In this document: positions 19,105 to 53,819 of the stretch, in pieces
Layout of the letters: the number at the start of each line of letters is the position of its first letter
Position numbering within the stretch: position 1 is the first letter of the stretch
NCBI GenBank assembly: GCA_020054095.1
Contig: JAGVMA010000063.1
Coordinates: 1-64,000, forward strand
DNA length: 64,000 bases
Reading direction: 5' to 3'
DNA from: Bacteroidia bacterium
Lineage (GTDB): Bacteria; Bacteroidota; Bacteroidia; JADZBD01
Program-made: the position numbers and the translations under genes
The notes under the pieces: generated by a model
Told to the model about the DNA's origin: nothing
Databases searched by the model: none
What the model saw: the letters and a program-made list of their open reading frames with translations, nothing else

Positions 19105-20977
19105 TTTGTGATGTGTTTTTTACAGTCGGCAATTTCATTTTTGCAATTTTATTTTTTAGCCCTGTTGCAGTTCTTATTTCGGTAATTGAAAAATGTTGTA
19201 ACGTGAAAGAAACAATGTAAATAGATAGTGCAAAATTTAGTCCTATATAATTTAAAAAACTAAAAAAGCCAACAAAAAACTTACGATACTGCTCGGGGCT
19301 TAAATTAATATTCCAATTAATTACTTCAAAAATAAACCAAGTGATGTACTCTGAGGAGAGTACGACCATGAATAAAAAGCAAATAATAATGTTGATGACA
19401 TGCAAGCCATAAGCTCTGGCAAAAAAAACCAAGCCAAATGAAAAGCCCTTGCCAAACGATGAAAACAAACTGTTTTTTTCAAATACCGATGAGCAATACC
19501 AATGCATATAAACCGGCATGAGTAAGAAAATAAACCAAACACATGCTTCGGGCGATGCATAAGCAAAAAGCGTGGAAACAATGCCTGCCAAAAAACTTTT
19601 TGTAAATATTTTTATCCAATACGCAGTATTTCTTTTCTGATTGGGCTCAATTTGTTTTTTAATAAAATAAACTGTTAAAAAAGCAGTAGCGGAATACATC
19701 AACCCGTTAACTATTGCAAGCAAAGGAAACCTGCCATAGCTGAAATATTGAACCAAATCAATGAAAGAGGTAAAAATATTCGCTATTGTATCAAAGAAAT
19801 TACCGGTGTTAAGCGAAAACTCAAATTTTAAATTATCACTTAATAAATAGCCGCAGAGTATTGCAGCCAAAACTGAAAAAGAAAAAACAAACCAAAATAG
19901 TTTCGAGAAAAAAACACGAAACAATCCAAATGTATGCTGCATTATTTCACCATTATTTTTTACTTCGGTTAGTTCTAATTTTTCTTCAACAGATTCAGGC
20001 AACTTGCCATCTTCTATTGGTTTTGAAAACCCTTTTCGCGAACGCTTATAAGGCAACCAAATAAAATATCCGAAAATAAATGCTGCGGAAACTAAAATGA
20101 GCAGCGCCTTTAAAATATCGGGGAAACCCGTGTAGCGTGTAATAAAACTTTCGATGAAAGCGGCAAATGTAATCACTGGAGCTATGCCAAGCATTATTTT
20201 TATTGCTCTGCGCGATGATAACCGAAACGATTGCATGCGCGTATACGTGCCCGGAAAAACCAATCCTATTCCAAAAGTAATTCCGGCACCACCTGCAATA
20301 ATAATACTCGAAATTTCTAACGTACCGTGCAGCCATATAGATAGTGCCGATTTAAGAAATAAACCATGCTGAACAAAAAAGTATTGAAAGGTGCCCACCA
20401 TTATTCCGTTATAAATCATAATAGCAATTGTACCAATAGCGTAAAAAATACCCATAATAAAAGTGCGCACTGCAACCATAATATTGTTGAACGTGATACC
20501 AAGCATCATAAAATCTTGCCGCTGTCCTTTGTAAACCGCCATCGGGTCGCCCTTTTGTATATTTTCCAGAGTCATTGATACATAATAATCGCCTAAAATT
20601 AATCTTGGAAAATCGGGATTATGAATGCAACAGAAAACACCAATTGCAGCTGACAATAAAAAAATGATAAGCGACAAAGTCATTGCCCTACGCGATTCCC
20701 ACATTATTTGTGGCAGCTCTTCTTTCCAAAAATTTACAAAGCGCTGTTTTTTTGTACTTCTGTTTTTATAAATGCTGTGAAATACTTTCTGCGAAACATT
20801 GTTCAAATAAACCCTAACTGAACGAAAGCGATAAAATGTTCGAGAATAAGAAAGGTCGTCAGTTATCTGAACAAATAAATTGCTCAGCTTCTCCGGATTT
20901 TTATTTGGATGCTTCAACTCCTTTTCAAATTCCAACCACTTATCCTTATTTTGCTTTATAAACTGTGTTTCTTTCAA
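19094..20977 (-). CDS. Stage II sporulation protein M-like membrane protein (SpoIIM family)
   Basis: The 627-residue protein has a soluble helical N-terminus (about 100 residues). A SpoIIM-like multi-membrane region follows, with FFVQHGLFLKSALSIWLHGTLEISSIIIAGGAGITFG carrying the family's WLHGxxE motif, and then further membrane segments up to residue 600. The start is TTG (KETQFIKQNKDKWLEFE), chosen because the N-terminal pattern matches relatives and no suitable ATG is nearby. Non-sporulating Bacteroidota keep this gene next to MoxR/DUF58. It may act as the membrane core of that module, but this is inference. Confidence 0.85.
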   Translation of the reverse strand: MKETQFIKQNKDKWLEFEKELKHPNKNPEKLSNLFVQITDDLSYSRTFYRFRSVRVYLNNVSQKVFHSIYKNRSTKKQRFVNFWKEELPQIMWESRRAMTLSLIIFLLSAAIGVFCCIHNPDFPRLILGDYYVSMTLENIQKGDPMAVYKGQRQDFMMLGITFNNIMVAVRTFIMGIFYAIGTIAIMIYNGIMVGTFQYFFVQHGLFLKSALSIWLHGTLEISSIIIAGGAGITFGIGLVFPGTYTRMQSFRLSSRRAIKIMLGIAPVITFAAFIESFITRYTGFPDILKALLILVSAAFIFGYFIWLPYKRSRKGFSKPIEDGKLPESVEEKLELTEVKNNGEIMQHTFGLFRVFFSKLFWFVFSFSVLAAILCGYLLSDNLKFEFSLNTGNFFDTIANIFTSFIDLVQYFSYGRFPLLAIVNGLMYSATAFLTVYFIKKQIEPNQKRNTAYWIKIFTKSFLAGIVSTLFAYASPEACVWFIFLLMPVYMHWYCSSVFEKNSLFSSFGKGFSFGLVFFARAYGLHVINIIICFLFMVVLSSEYITWFIFEVINWNINLSPEQYRKFFVGFFSFLNYIGLNFALSIYIVSFTLQHFSITEIRTATGLKNKIAKMKLPTVKNTSQNAA

Positions 20978-41176: not shown

Positions 41177-41971
41177 TTATTTTTTAACATTCATTGCAGA
41201 TAGCATATTGCCATAAACATTATTTAAGGCAGCTAAATTGTTTGATAACTCGGCAATTTCTTGTTTATACTTTTCGGTATCGCTAACAGAGGCGCTCAAG
41301 TTACTCATCATTTTATTTATGCTTTCGTAGAATTGGGTAGAAGCTTTTAAGTTTTCTGCCGAACCTTGCAATTGCAACTCGTAAGAAGCGTTTAAAGCAG
41401 AAAGGTTTTTAGAAACTTTGTTCAGTTGCTCGCCAAAAGAAGCGCCATCATCGTTAGATAATGATAAGCCCATTAATGATTCAGCAGCTTTTGAGTATGA
41501 TGAAGATAATGAATTAACATTTTTTGCAGCTGATTTAACGCTATCTACATACTCGTTAGTAGCAACTGTAGCATTTGATATATCAGAAACTTTGTTTACT
41601 GTATCAGTCAGTCCGCGCATTCCATCGCCTAAGCTTGCTATGAGTTCAGGACCAATTTTAGCTTCTTCAAGCATTTTATCTAATGTTTCGGTAACGGATG
41701 CATCTTCTTCAATTGCTTTTTCATCGCCATGACCATCGCCATGCATGCCTGCAAGCTCCGGGTAAACTAAACTCCAATCAACTTCTTCATGTATTGGCTC
41801 AAAAGCCGAGAATATGAATATGACAGCTTCTGTACTTAGACCAATGATAAGTAGTAATCCGGCAAAAGGCCAGTGCTGAATTTTAAAAAGAGCACCCACG
41901 ATAACTACTGCCGCGCCAATACCGTATAGTTTGGCCATGAAATTTTTCCACGCTTTTGTTCCTGGTTTCAT
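41177..41971 (-). CDS. gldL: T9SS motor protein GldL (PorL)
   Basis: Partner of GldM in the inner-membrane motor. The 264-residue protein has two N-terminal membrane segments (about 13-30 and 35-55: LYGIGAAVVIVGALFKIQHWPFAGLLLIIGLSTEAVIFIFSAFEP). The conserved Lys-Ile-Gln-His-Trp-Pro turn lies between them, and a conserved Glu in the second segment may take part in proton use. The rest is a cytoplasmic coiled coil. Length and layout match the family. Confidence 0.95.
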   Translation of the reverse strand: MKPGTKAWKNFMAKLYGIGAAVVIVGALFKIQHWPFAGLLLIIGLSTEAVIFIFSAFEPIHEEVDWSLVYPELAGMHGDGHGDEKAIEEDASVTETLDKMLEEAKIGPELIASLGDGMRGLTDTVNKVSDISNATVATNEYVDSVKSAAKNVNSLSSSYSKAAESLMGLSLSNDDGASFGEQLNKVSKNLSALNASYELQLQGSAENLKASTQFYESINKMMSNLSASVSDTEKYKQEIAELSNNLAALNNVYGNMLSAMNVKK

Positions 41972-42036
41972 AATTTGTAATTTTTAGAGGTTAGTTGTTT
42001 AAGGTTAACTGTTGATTTGATTTGGTTTTATTATTT

Positions 42037-50331: not shown

Positions 50332-50402
50332 AAATGAGTAATACAGAAATAAATAAAACAATAATTAAGTGATTTTTTAAAATGAAAAATAACTCTAATA
50401 CC

Positions 50403-50457
50403 TTGAATCTAAAATCTAACATCTTACCTCTTGATTCTAAAATCTTGGTTCTAAAAT
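50403..50457. repeat. Short repeat tract (TTGnnTCTAAAAT x3) upstream of the sigma-54 activator
   Basis: Three copies of a 13-base unit: TTGAATCTAAAAT (50403-50415), TTGATTCTAAAAT (50431-50443) and TTGGTTCTAAAAT (50445-50457). The ATG of the next gene (50456) begins at the last two bases of the third copy. Confidence 0.6.
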
Positions 50458-51676
50458 GAAAATACAAGACATAAAAAATCGTTTCGGAATTATAGGCACA
50501 TCGCCTTTGCTTGATAGAGCAATGGATATTGCTATACAAGTAGCGCCTACCGATTTAAGCGTTTTAATAACAGGCGAAAGCGGAACGGGTAAGGAAGTAT
50601 TTCCGCAAATTATACACCAATTAAGCAGCCGCAAGCATGGCGCTTACATTGCCGTTAACTGCGGTGCAATACCCGAAGGCACAATTGATTCGGAATTATT
50701 TGGCCACGAAAAAGGCTCGTTTACGGGCGCTAACGAAATGCGAAAAGGATATTTTGAAGTGGCCGATGGCGGCACCATTTTTTTAGATGAAGTAGCCGAA
50801 ATGCCATTGGCAACACAAGCCCGCTTGCTGCGTGTACTCGAAACGGGCGAGTTTATTAAAGTGGGATCATCTAAAGTGCAAAAAACTAATGTACGCGTGG
50901 TGGCTGCCACCAATGTTAATTTACCACAAGCGATAGAAAAAGGAAAATTCAGAGAAGATTTATACTACCGCCTCAATACAGTGCCCGTTACCGTGCCACC
51001 TTTGCGCGAACGCAAGCAAGATATTCATTTATTGTTCCGGAAATTTGCCGCTGATTTTTCGGCAAAATACCGCATGCCGAGCATTAAGCTGGATACCGAT
51101 GCCGAAAAACTACTCACCAATTATTATTACCAAGGCAACGTGCGCCAATTGAAAAATATTACCGAACAAATTTCTATCATCGAAAAAACGCGCGACATAA
51201 ATGCCGATACTTTAATACGCTACCTCCCGCAGCATAACATTACACAACAACCCATGCTGGCTAAAGCCGATGGCGTGCAAACCGAATTTACTGAACGCGA
51301 CATTTTATACAAAATACTTTTTGATCTCAAGAAAGACATGAACGATTTAAAAAAAATTGTGGTAGATTTAATTGAAAACGACTCGGTATTAAAACAAGAT
51401 TTTATGCCCGAAAACGAACACATCATCAAAAAACTTTACCAAGATGTGGGCCTTACCGAAACCACTACCCTTAAACTTGGCTACAACGAAAATAAAGATT
51501 ACGATAACGGAACCATTGTGATAGAAGAACCACGATCGCTCCAGCAAGTAGAAGAAGAAATGATAAAAAAAGCATTAGAAAAATACAAAGGCAAACGCAA
51601 ACATGCCGCCAATGAATTAGGAATATCTGAACGAACGCTTTACCGAAAAATTAACGAATATGGAATAAAGGAATAG
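50456..51676 (+). CDS. Sigma-54 dependent transcriptional activator without sensor domain
   Basis: The 406-residue protein begins directly with the AAA+ domain. It has Walker A GESGTGKE (40-47), the sigma-54 contact loop GSFTGA (87-92, usual form GAFTGA), and Walker B GGTIFLDEVAEM (105-116). It then has VRVVAATNVNL and the arginine fingers in FREDLYYRLNTVPVTVPPLRER. A C-terminal Fis-type helix-turn-helix is present (RKHAANELGISERTLYRKINEYG). There is no N-terminal receiver or GAF domain, so control must be through level, partner protein or a cis signal. The gene is part of the miaB-lptE-secG-groE neighbourhood. Its targets are unknown. Confidence 0.92.
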   Translation: MKIQDIKNRFGIIGTSPLLDRAMDIAIQVAPTDLSVLITGESGTGKEVFPQIIHQLSSRKHGAYIAVNCGAIPEGTIDSELFGHEKGSFTGANEMRKGYFEVADGGTIFLDEVAEMPLATQARLLRVLETGEFIKVGSSKVQKTNVRVVAATNVNLPQAIEKGKFREDLYYRLNTVPVTVPPLRERKQDIHLLFRKFAADFSAKYRMPSIKLDTDAEKLLTNYYYQGNVRQLKNITEQISIIEKTRDINADTLIRYLPQHNITQQPMLAKADGVQTEFTERDILYKILFDLKKDMNDLKKIVVDLIENDSVLKQDFMPENEHIIKKLYQDVGLTETTTLKLGYNENKDYDNGTIVIEEPRSLQQVEEEMIKKALEKYKGKRKHAANELGISERTLYRKINEYGIKE

Positions 51677-51707: not shown

Positions 51708-51799
51708 AAATCACTTTTAAAATAAAAAAATGGCTTTCGGAGTAAAAAAACCGGCTTTTTGCTTATAAAAAATCACTTTTGATAAGAAAAAAATGACTT
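51708..51799. repeat. Direct repeat pair in the gap before lptE
   Basis: Two imperfect copies about 30 bases long begin at 51708 and 51770. Both start AAATCACTTTT and contain an A run followed by ATGGCTTT or ATGACTTT. They lie in the 199-base gap between the activator and lptE. No convincing gene was found there. Confidence 0.45.
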
Positions 51800-51833
51800 T
51801 TAAAGCACCAAAAGTTAAAAATGAAAAAACTAA

Positions 51834-51894
51834 GATTAACAAATCAACAAATTACCTCACCAGCAAATTAACTAATTGGCACATCAACAAATTA
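51834..51894. repeat. CAACAAATTA repeat tract overlapping the lptE start
   Basis: ATCAACAAATTA occurs exactly at 51843-51854 and 51883-51894, with the related CAGCAAATTA at 51861-51870. The tract runs across the presumed TTG start of lptE (51876), so the first residues of LptE (AHQQIK) are encoded by repeat sequence. Confidence 0.5.
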
Positions 51895-52382
51895 AAATAA
51901 TAATCACCCTTTTGCTCGTTACATTATACTCGTGCAAAATGCGCTACTCGTTTACCGGAGGCGAAAAAGGCAACGCCAAAACCGTGCAAGTACAATTTTT
52001 TAAAGTAGATGCACCACTCGCAAAACCCACCACAGGCATCGTTTTCACGGAAGCATTAAAAGATATAATGCAAAACCAAGGCAAACTTGAACTGATAACC
52101 ACCAATGCCGATTTAAACTTTGAAGGACAAATAACCGCTTATGCCATTACGCCCGTTGCCATCCAAAGCAACGACCAATCGGCCCTCAACCGATTAACCA
52201 TCACCGTACAAGTGAAATACACCAATACATTAGAAAAAGAAAAAAGTTTCGATCAATCCTTTTCGCGATTTGTAGATTACGAAAGTTCAAAAAATCTATC
52301 ATCAGTAGAAGATGAATTGATAACCGAAATAGTGCGCCAATTGGTACAAGATATTTTTAACCGATCGCTAAGCAACTGGTAA
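51876..52382 (+). CDS. lptE: LPS assembly lipoprotein LptE
   Basis: LptE plugs the LptD barrel that inserts lipopolysaccharide into the outer membrane. The 168-residue protein has a lipobox near residue 20 (LLLVTLYSC). It continues with AKTVQVQFFKVDAP, LIMQNQGKLELITTNADLNFEGQITAYAITPVA and LNRLTITVQVKY, a pattern common in Bacteroidota LptE. The start is unclear. TTG at 51876 directly follows an in-frame TAA, and no ATG lies before the lipobox, so TTG is the best choice. Confidence 0.8.
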   Translation: MAHQQIKIIITLLLVTLYSCKMRYSFTGGEKGNAKTVQVQFFKVDAPLAKPTTGIVFTEALKDIMQNQGKLELITTNADLNFEGQITAYAITPVAIQSNDQSALNRLTITVQVKYTNTLEKEKSFDQSFSRFVDYESSKNLSSVEDELITEIVRQLVQDIFNRSLSNW

Positions 52383-52387
52383 ATTAC

Positions 52388-53458
52388 ATGAACAAGCAAC
52401 AATTCATATCGTATTTAGAAAATCCACATTTGCTCGATGAAAAATCGCTGCAAGAAATAGCACCACTTGCCAGCCAGTTTCCTTATTGCCAAAACCTGCA
52501 CCTGCTGCTTGCTAAAAACCTTCACAATTTAAGCAGCATCCATTTCGATAAACAAATAAAAATTGCAGCAGTTTATGCCACCGATAGAAAAAAACTTTAT
52601 CAGTTAATAAACAATAAGTACAAAGTAGAAAGTATTAAGCACGAAGAGAAAAGTACTGAGAGCCAAGAAACAAGAGTTGAGATTAAAGAGGAAAAAATAA
52701 TTCAAATTGAAGAACCTCTAACCACCACCAATTTACAATCTACAATTGAAAATTTACAAATTGAAGAACCTCTAATCACCAACAATTTACAATCTACAAT
52801 TGAAAATTTACAAATTGAAGAACCTCTAACCACCAACAATTTACAATCTACAATTGAAAATTTACAAATTGAAGAACCTCTAACCACCAACCAGCAACCA
52901 GTAACAAGTAACCAACTATCAACCGAATTTGAAGAAATAGAAAAATTAGAAAAAGAAAAAATCACACTCGATGAACAATACCAAATACAAGCCGTAGAAG
53001 CCGAAATAGAAATAGGCATAGAACACGCCACCGAACAATTAGAATCACAAGTATATAACTTTGAAGAAGCTGAAACCAGCAACCAGCAACCAATAACCCA
53101 AAACACCGAATTAAGTTTTACCGATTGGCTAAAAATAAGCACCCAACAAAACATAACCCAATTACCAACAGAAGAAACAACAGCCGAAGAAAAATCAGAA
53201 GATTTAATAGAAAAATTCATAAATACACCACCCGAAAAAATAAAACCCAAAAAAGATTTTTACAACCCCATTAACATGGCACGCCAGAGCGCGCTCGATA
53301 ACAGCGAGTACGTAACCGAAACATTAGCAACCATTTACGAAAAGCAAGGCGCTTACTCAAAAGCCATCCGCGCTTACGAAATATTGATTTTGAATTATCC
53401 CGAAAAAAGTGTTTACTTTGCCGCCCGAATTGAGGAAATAAAGAAATTGATTAATTAA
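52388..53458 (+). CDS. TPR-like protein with a repetitive central linker
   Basis: The 356-residue protein has a conserved N-terminal part (about 1-75: QQFISYLENPHLLDEKSLQEI, FPYCQNLHLLLAKNLHN) and a C-terminal helical repeat (about 290-356: YVTETLATIYEKQGAYSKAIRAYEIL) typical of TPR. Between them lies an acidic linker made mostly from three full copies and one partial copy of an 18-residue unit (IEEPLTTTNLQSTIEN), and from Asn/Gln/Thr-rich stretches. The gene lies 5 bases after lptE and 13 before secG. Function is unknown; the linker is likely disordered and variable between strains. Confidence 0.8.
   Translation: MNKQQFISYLENPHLLDEKSLQEIAPLASQFPYCQNLHLLLAKNLHNLSSIHFDKQIKIAAVYATDRKKLYQLINNKYKVESIKHEEKSTESQETRVEIKEEKIIQIEEPLTTTNLQSTIENLQIEEPLITNNLQSTIENLQIEEPLTTNNLQSTIENLQIEEPLTTNQQPVTSNQLSTEFEEIEKLEKEKITLDEQYQIQAVEAEIEIGIEHATEQLESQVYNFEEAETSNQQPITQNTELSFTDWLKISTQQNITQLPTEETTAEEKSEDLIEKFINTPPEKIKPKKDFYNPINMARQSALDNSEYVTETLATIYEKQGAYSKAIRAYEILILNYPEKSVYFAARIEEIKKLIN
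52703..52890 (+). repeat. 54-bp in-frame tandem repeat
   Basis: Units start at 52703, 52757 and 52811 and are nearly identical over 54 bases; a fourth partial unit starts at 52865. Because 54 is a multiple of three the frame is kept. Differences are single bases (for example ACC to ATC). The sequence TTTACAATCTACAATTGAAAA is low-complexity and resembles non-coding repeat tracts nearby. Confidence 0.9.
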
Positions 53459-53471
53459 AATAACACACTAC

Positions 53472-53819
53472 ATGGCATTTATTCAAGTACTTATTATCAT
53501 TATCTCGATACTACTTGTATTAGTAGTATTGGTACAAAATTCAAAAGGCGGTGGCATCGCATCAAACTTTGCAGGCAACACACAAATAGTAGGCGTAAAA
53601 CGCCAAGCCGAATTAATAGAAAAAATAACTTGGGGTTTTATCATCGCACTTTTTGTGCTATGTATAGCCACCGCATCGTTTAAAGGCGAAGTAGTAAACA
53701 CTAAAACCGATTCGGTAGTTAAAAACACCGAAGCACCTATGCAACCTAATCCGGGCGGAAACGGAACAGGCGTTCCGCAAATGCCTCAGCAAGGCGGTAG
53801 CGATACAATTAAACCTTAG
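53472..53819 (+). CDS. secG: Preprotein translocase subunit SecG
   Basis: Accessory subunit of the SecYEG channel. The 115-residue protein has two membrane segments (about 3-20 and 52-70) with the conserved VLVQNSKGGGIASNFAGNTQIVGVKRQAELIEKITWG between them. The C-terminal tail is Pro/Gly/Gln-rich (MQPNPGGNGTGVPQMPQQGG), as in many Bacteroidota. It lies 13 bases after the TPR-like gene and before groES. Confidence 0.92.
   Translation: MAFIQVLIIIISILLVLVVLVQNSKGGGIASNFAGNTQIVGVKRQAELIEKITWGFIIALFVLCIATASFKGEVVNTKTDSVVKNTEAPMQPNPGGNGTGVPQMPQQGGSDTIKP

Follow-up and report, generated by a model that had tools for sequence, protein, structure and literature searches.

The gene described here occupies the interval between lptE and secG in the window, by which we mean the whole 64,000-nucleotide stretch of Bacteroidia DNA that was analysed. 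It encodes a protein of 356 amino acids, in which a linker separates two end regions, and the linker DNA holds both a 54-bp tandem repeat and more degenerate arrays built on a seven-base unit. The features of the locus are as follows.

51876..52382, + strand: lptE, the left neighbour (PF04390, E 1.4e-18)
52388..53458, + strand: gene for the 356-aa protein in the lptE-secG interval, an ORF with a helical N-terminal part (residues ~1-78), a linker and a TPR-like C-terminal end (~285-356)
52598..52702, + strand: heptanucleotide array of AAGTANN/AAGANNN flavour (assigned by eye), 105 bases long and directly before the 54-bp repeat; z 5.0, 4.4, 4.6 and 3.7 at lags 7, 14, 21 and 28 (1000 codon shuffles)
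52703..52756, + strand: unit 1 of the 54-bp repeat (TRF and unit comparison)
52757..52810, + strand: unit 2, differing from unit 1 at 2 positions
52811..52864, + strand: unit 3, with one difference from unit 1 and one from unit 2
52865..52891, + strand: partial unit 4, 27 bases, the same as unit 3 over those 27 bases
52873..52926, + strand: heptamer array of AACCAGY flavour overlapping the end of the 54-bp repeat (a lag-7 array; pattern AACCAGCAACCAGCAACC)
53062..53118, + strand: second heptamer array of AACCAGY flavour, directly before the SFTDWLK motif (pattern matches and array scan)
53114..53134, + strand: SFxxWLK motif within the linker, here SFTDWLK, in which all 12 aligned orthologs keep F244 and W247
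53472..53819, + strand: secG, the right neighbour (PF03840, E 2.8e-16)

An earlier note on this DNA had described the 54-bp repeat as in frame and, from the near identity of its units, recently expanded, and had placed it in an acidic linker between two conserved ends, beside lptE and secG. All of this is borne out. TRF reports a period of 54 at 52703-52891, with 3.5 copies, 97% matches, 0 indels and a score of 364, the remaining seven rows for the window scoring 50-67. The array keeps the frame of the ORF at 52388-53458, each unit specifying 18 residues, QIEEPL[T/I]T[T/N]NLQSTIENL, and any two full units differ at only 1 or 2 of their 54 positions, so that the repeat has both the unit divisible by three and the near-identical tandem copies of a coding minisatellite (VNTR). 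The draft genome comprises 87 contigs, and the copy number given here could therefore be a value of the assembly. That copy number varies between strains, as the note expected, stands as a prediction: among the 60 genomes of the search for relatives, none besides this one belongs to its genus. The ortholog in the only genome of the same family (G001) has neither a TRF tandem repeat nor a lag-7 signal.

What the earlier note overlooked, while being right about repeat, linker and context, is that a degenerate 7-bp array of a dispersed type underlies the 54-bp unit, which is secondary to it. Heptanucleotide periodicity runs from 52598 to about 52926 and again over 53062-53118. For the linker, identity at lag 7 is 0.479, compared with 0.322 in 1000 codon shuffles that preserve codon usage and amino-acid composition (z 10.2), and z is still 6.4 at lag 14 and 3.5 at lag 21. 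The lag-7 signal is absent from the N-terminal part (z 0.6), from the C-terminal part (z -0.3 at lag 7; z 2.8 at lag 21) and from 53102-53239 (z 0.7). Among the 57 ORFs of at least 120 aa in the window, this one ranks first for lag 7, its best 210-base segment giving z 10.8 (60 shuffles); the antisense frame of the same DNA is second (8.7) and the third reaches 3.9, and at the control lags 5, 8, 10 and 11 the maximum for any of these ORFs is 3.8. Seven-base periodicity in excess of the codon null is thus present, in units that are degenerate and inexact.

A match to the 356-aa protein is found in 55 of the 60 genomes searched, its own included, and in 14 of 20 genomes when the N-terminal part alone is used. 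Homologues of both lptE and secG are detected at 47 of the 55 ortholog loci, one or both being missed at L009, L019, L145-L147 and L158-L160, some of which are short loci. Both ends of the protein and its neighbourhood therefore recur across the class, and in the alignment of 12 orthologs the two ends and the mid-protein SFxxWLK motif are retained. Four further loci, from a scan of the genome contigs of named relatives, resemble the protein only at its C-terminal end and have a different gene context, as judged by eye from their neighbours, and for this reason they are not counted as orthologs. Linker length varies from 27 to 564 aa, with a median of 167, in the 50 orthologs for which both ends are detected within a single ORF (a count from which L023, L137 and L157-L159 are dropped). 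With its length varying while the ends stay constant, the linker probably serves as a spacer.

Domain assignments are sparse. The Pfam TPR matches at residues ~312-339 all fall under the curated cut-offs, the best being TPR_6 at 18.6 bits where 26.3 are needed, and no NCBIfam name scores above cut-off for the protein or for three of its orthologs. Structure prediction from the single sequence gives a poor model (mean pLDDT 47.7, with 244 of 356 residues below pLDDT 50), and only the helices of the C-terminal end, residues 311-356, are modelled confidently, at a block pLDDT of 88-94. The poor model of the linker is in keeping with disorder, though it is no proof of it. Two other repetitive stretches lie close by. 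The first, at 51838-51895, overlaps the start of the listed lptE ORF and has a periodicity of 24, 16 and 8 bases (z 5.7, 4.6 and 3.5 against base shuffles), possibly an octamer array, and the second, at 51708-51804 between the sigma-54 activator ORF and lptE, is a degenerate A-rich repeat of 20-21 bases.

Heptamer arrays are not confined to this gene. In its own genome the pattern AACCAGCAACCAGCAACC gives 55 overlapping matches with up to 3 mismatches, compared with 4 for the reversed control, and these form 18 clusters, 7 of them single; the ACAATTT flavour, in contrast, is found by pattern only in the lptE-secG linker gene. A scan with an array score that joins lags p and 2p covered 715 kb of this genome, made up of 33 stretches and the window, a sample that is not random since 15 of the 33 stretches hold a BLAST or AACCAGCAACCAGCAACC-pattern match. 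At a score of 0.66 it returned nine arrays at period 7, three at period 9 and none at any other period from 4 to 13, and simulated sequence gave no period-7 array at that score. At the looser score of 0.60 the counts are 15 at period 7, 11 at period 9, 10 at period 6, 7 at period 12 and 0-5 elsewhere, and single-lag scoring of 315 kb gave nine arrays at lag 21 and eight at lag 7.

Period 7 also stands above the other short periods when 14 genomes are pooled (1.83 Mb, score 0.62). There are 41 period-7 arrays, seven of which belong to this gene or its orthologs (three in its own genome, two in G057 and two in G016), against a total of 12 at periods 4, 5, 8, 10, 11 and 13; the codon periods 6, 9 and 12 account for 32 arrays, and 100 kb of E. 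coli K-12 yields none at the same score. The arrays come from the genome under study and five of the 13 sampled relatives, and the remaining eight of the 14 genomes, G001 of the same family among them, have no period-7 array at 0.62. In G057, a single contig, 260 kb contain 14 arrays at period 7 and one at the other periods from 4 to 13; G041 has four arrays at period 11 beside seven at period 7. A tandem duplication of ~45 bp in G041 (L136:8664-8767) takes in both heptamers and flanking DNA outside the repeat, perhaps a sign of a small dispersed element. No one heptamer word is common to all genomes, an idea we rejected because only a single canonical word (AAGAATC) among 46 arrays occurs in two genomes.

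In the ortholog linker, a lag-7 z of at least 3 is reached in three of the four scorable array-bearing relatives (G016, G047 and G057, the array counts of G016 and G057 including arrays inside this very gene) and in none of the eight array-free ones; G041 could not be scored, and G006 has four arrays in a 40-kb sample yet an ortholog linker without the signal. Across all 50 orthologous linkers, six reach this value (those of the genome under study, G047, G016, G039, G057 and G014) and 44 do not, whereas 23 control lags between 4 and 30 that are not divisible by 7 reach z 3 in 4 of 1150 tests. The G019 linker has z 4.4 at lag 14.

Two genera allow comparison between species. In genus g17, where six of seven genomes have a match, alignment by eye places an array at about the same site of the linker, and four of the six species carry different flavours there: AATCAAG in G016, CATTAAC/CATCAAC in G060, a CCATCCTC-like word in G064, and AAGTCTC followed by ACAAACC in G059. 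A weaker GAAACTG run lies at the site in G061 and none in G062. The whole-linker lag-7 values are 5.5 for G016, 4.1 for G060, 3.9 for G064, 2.2 for G061 and 1.1 for G062, with G059 unscored. At the G059 locus (L023, reverse strand, ~970-1896) the frame is interrupted inside the heptamer array and the two ends of the protein lie in separate ORFs, through either a genuine break or a fault of the assembly. In genus g15, by comparison, two homologous stretches have the GAGAGNN flavour in both G057 and G014, and one of them differs in length by 9 bases; the third species, G065, is too short in the alignment for comparison there.

We propose, at a probability of roughly 0.7, that the linker consists of degenerate heptamer arrays produced by a process that acts genome-wide, here and in some relatives of the class, and that the 54-bp amplification rides on it. 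A process of this kind most likely both supplies such linkers and reshapes them. Seven-base words would be duplicated side by side, the likeliest mechanism being slippage during replication with a 7-nt register. Since seven is not a multiple of three, the gain or loss of one unit within an ORF would break the frame, so that selection would retain only in-frame combinations.

Is slippage on its own sufficient? Every array could have arisen in place from whatever seed was present, without copying between loci, shared flavours then reflecting a preference of sequence. Such a scheme fits the differing flavours of congeneric species at about the same site and, for the most part, of different genomes, and slippage of a polymerase by 7 nt has been proposed in literature cited by two reports of heptamer repeats (PMC4679880, PMC4692102). 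Many same-flavour pairs, moreover, do not beat shuffles of their units. It fares less well against pairs of distant loci that share the order of their units. An intergenic leader on contig C80, which precedes an ORF read as a thiolase, has 51 identities with the linker in 63 ungapped positions across two flavours, scoring 39 when the maximum of 200 unit shuffles is 22; this pair was first found by BLAST (E 1e-6), and the C80 stretch was chosen for that match. When the best eight pairs per genome are compared with unit shuffles, some in G000, G057 and G041 beat all or nearly all of them and others fail. Unit order beyond the shuffle nulls links some loci by more than their words alone, and because of such pairs we infer that pieces of array are sometimes copied between loci. 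Slippage without copying is accordingly a possible account, but one that we doubt. In G057, a lipoprotein-like N-terminus and an intergenic array ~4 kb away (L192:15757-15806 and 19482-19543) carry the same words in the same order, with 28 identical bases. A phage or plasmid origin found no favour, 52598-53110 being unmatched in phage and plasmid collections (BLAST with the low-complexity filter on).

Start codons form the end point of several arrays, including two in the window:

50390..50460, + strand: heptamer array in the leader of the sigma-54 activator ORF, extending into its ATG (50456) (array scan)
41967..42015, - strand: weaker heptamer array in the leader into the start of the ORF at 41177-41971; its score of 0.60 equals the threshold (z 3.8 at lag 7 and 3.5 at lag 14, base shuffles)

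This position invites the view that the arrays are regulatory or RNA-binding elements first, their presence in ORFs being a by-product. In G047 a TAACTGA/TAACTAA array of ~170 bases (L018, ~927-1098) fills the space between lptE and the ortholog and ends just before its start, so that the same gene has an array in its leader and a periodic linker, and a regulatory role is what was proposed for the TAACTGA repeats of Beggiatoaceae (PMC4679880). Against this, flavour and strand vary, and many arrays lie away from starts: crude gene calling puts 6 of the 14 arrays of G057 within 25 nt upstream of a start (one of these six, and one of the other eight, being ortholog linker miscalled as intergenic), and 1 of 7 in G041. 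We consider a primarily regulatory nature unlikely.

Arrays also lie within protein-coding genes. Twenty-three arrays were inspected singly, from a list that mixes sampled with pattern-chosen arrays; four are outside any ORF of 60 aa, and two fall in ORFs of 64 and 74 aa. Some are located inside conserved domains. In a phosphoglycerate mutase the array-coded residues fall between matched stretches, the query running from 391 to 417 where the solved enzyme 1ejj runs from 387 to 390. The array of an amidohydrolase, at 147-171, is inside the PF01979 match; in G006 a radical-SAM enzyme read as MiaB has one at 232-276 inside the PF04055 match. Arrays lie beside the domains of a UbiD family protein and a methyltransferase, and in the C-terminal tail of a ribonucleotide reductase. 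The T-rich strand encodes hydrophobic N-termini in lptE of G006, two ORFs of G047 and one of G057, and from their sequence these look like signal peptides. On the preferred reading, arrays would persist mostly where protein or RNA is tolerant, in 5' leaders, loops, signal peptides and linkers. A 1,988-aa ORF of the same genome as the window (L078, C84:20001-32000) has four AACCAGY arrays between domains read as SPOR-like.

That heptamer repeats exist, also within genes, is already known. Direct 7-nt TAACTGA repeats have been described in Beggiatoaceae, some Cyanobacteria and five Bacteroidetes (MacGregor 2015, PMC4679880), and these resemble the present arrays in being dispersed, with many copies just upstream of start codons and some in ORFs. 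As that account presents it, the TAACTGA system consists of one nearly exact word whose in-ORF copies sit mostly at the periphery of proteins. The arrays of the window, unlike these, have other flavours, are degenerate, occur with several flavours per genome, lie inside linkers and enzyme domains and show turnover at one orthologous site. They fall outside the TAACTGA family, the window containing no direct pair of that unit in any rotation on either strand. Among our 211 sequences such pairs occur only in L192 of G057, as one pair within an array, and in the overlapping G047 loci L018, L185 and L186, so that TAACTGA appears as one flavour among relatives, in the leader array of G047 and the single pair of G057.

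Other systems share some of these properties. The heptanucleotide elements of Geobacter metallireducens, at 49 intergenic and intragenic places (PMC2700814), are likewise dispersed heptamer tandems that also occur within genes, but they are GC-rich, have four units and are read as regulatory, and protein linkers are not described in the portion of that report available to us. The heptameric repeats of Xanthomonas and Nostoc (PMC4692102) similarly vary in length and sequence between related genomes, differing in that they are G-rich and have been studied as intergenic G-quadruplex motifs. In literature whose coverage leaves most subscription journals outside, we found no account of Bacteroidia in which linkers, loops and signal peptides are formed by degenerate heptamer arrays of several flavours, and none of heptamer arrays turning over at an orthologous site. 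Rickettsia palindromic elements are dispersed, consist of palindromic DNA and survive in frame inside conserved protein genes. They are like the present arrays in their dispersal and their in-frame position within conserved genes; an element of this type was rejected here, as 52598-53118 contains no inverted repeat of at least 12 bases.

Could the repeat simply be a minisatellite of the usual sort, in which a tolerant, acidic linker has lately gained copies of a 54-bp in-frame unit and no deeper pattern underlies them? Near-identical units and a length divisible by three are what it predicts, and the repeats of archaeal Borg elements, described as A-enriched and recent tandem repeats that create disordered protein regions (PMC9879509), behave in the same way. 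The likeness to the present repeats extends to all of these properties, but the in-ORF units of Borgs are all divisible by three (PMC9879509), which is true of the 54-bp unit and false of the seven-base unit beneath it. A plain minisatellite is insufficient because the lag-7 signal lies outside the 54-bp copies: z is still 6.9 for the linker without its three 54-bp units and 5.0 upstream of the repeat. Nor does it predict that the linker shares 51 of 63 bases and their unit order with a leader elsewhere, and we regard it as decidedly unlikely. Selection at the protein level for a coiled-coil or amphipathic repeat, making the DNA seem periodic, has in its favour a long helix predicted at residues 174-228 by the single-sequence model and the helical look, by eye, of NLQSTIENLQ, but it is highly improbable because a 7-residue repeat would peak at lag 21 and the linker peaks at lag 7 (z 10.2 against 3.5), a periodicity that belongs to the DNA, and because similar arrays occur outside ORFs and the linker is so poorly modelled, with most residues below pLDDT 50.

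Our conclusion is that the 54-bp repeat lies within a degenerate heptamer array, of which it is a second-order amplification that keeps the frame. A composite of heptamers would have happened to span 18 codons, 54 bp in all, and then have been amplified in tandem. The amplification would lengthen a probably disordered spacer between the helical N-terminal and TPR-like C-terminal parts, neither of which it touches.

A broader reading, which we offer tentatively and think rather doubtful, is that a dispersal process in some Bacteroidia writes and rewrites degenerate heptamer arrays and copies pieces of them between leaders and ORFs. It may be a standing source of new protein segments, one strand giving hydrophilic linkers and loops and the other hydrophobic signal peptides, and within a genus it may overwrite homologous sites with different words. 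The TAACTGA repeats of other phyla might then be one word of a wider language. If this is true, a mutational process indifferent to codons would recurrently supply linkers, loops and signal peptides to ordinary conserved proteins, and the lptE-secG linker, easily found by its neighbours, would be a natural recorder of that process across the class. Why seven is a favoured unit of bacterial repeats would become a testable question, through comparison of species with and without the arrays.
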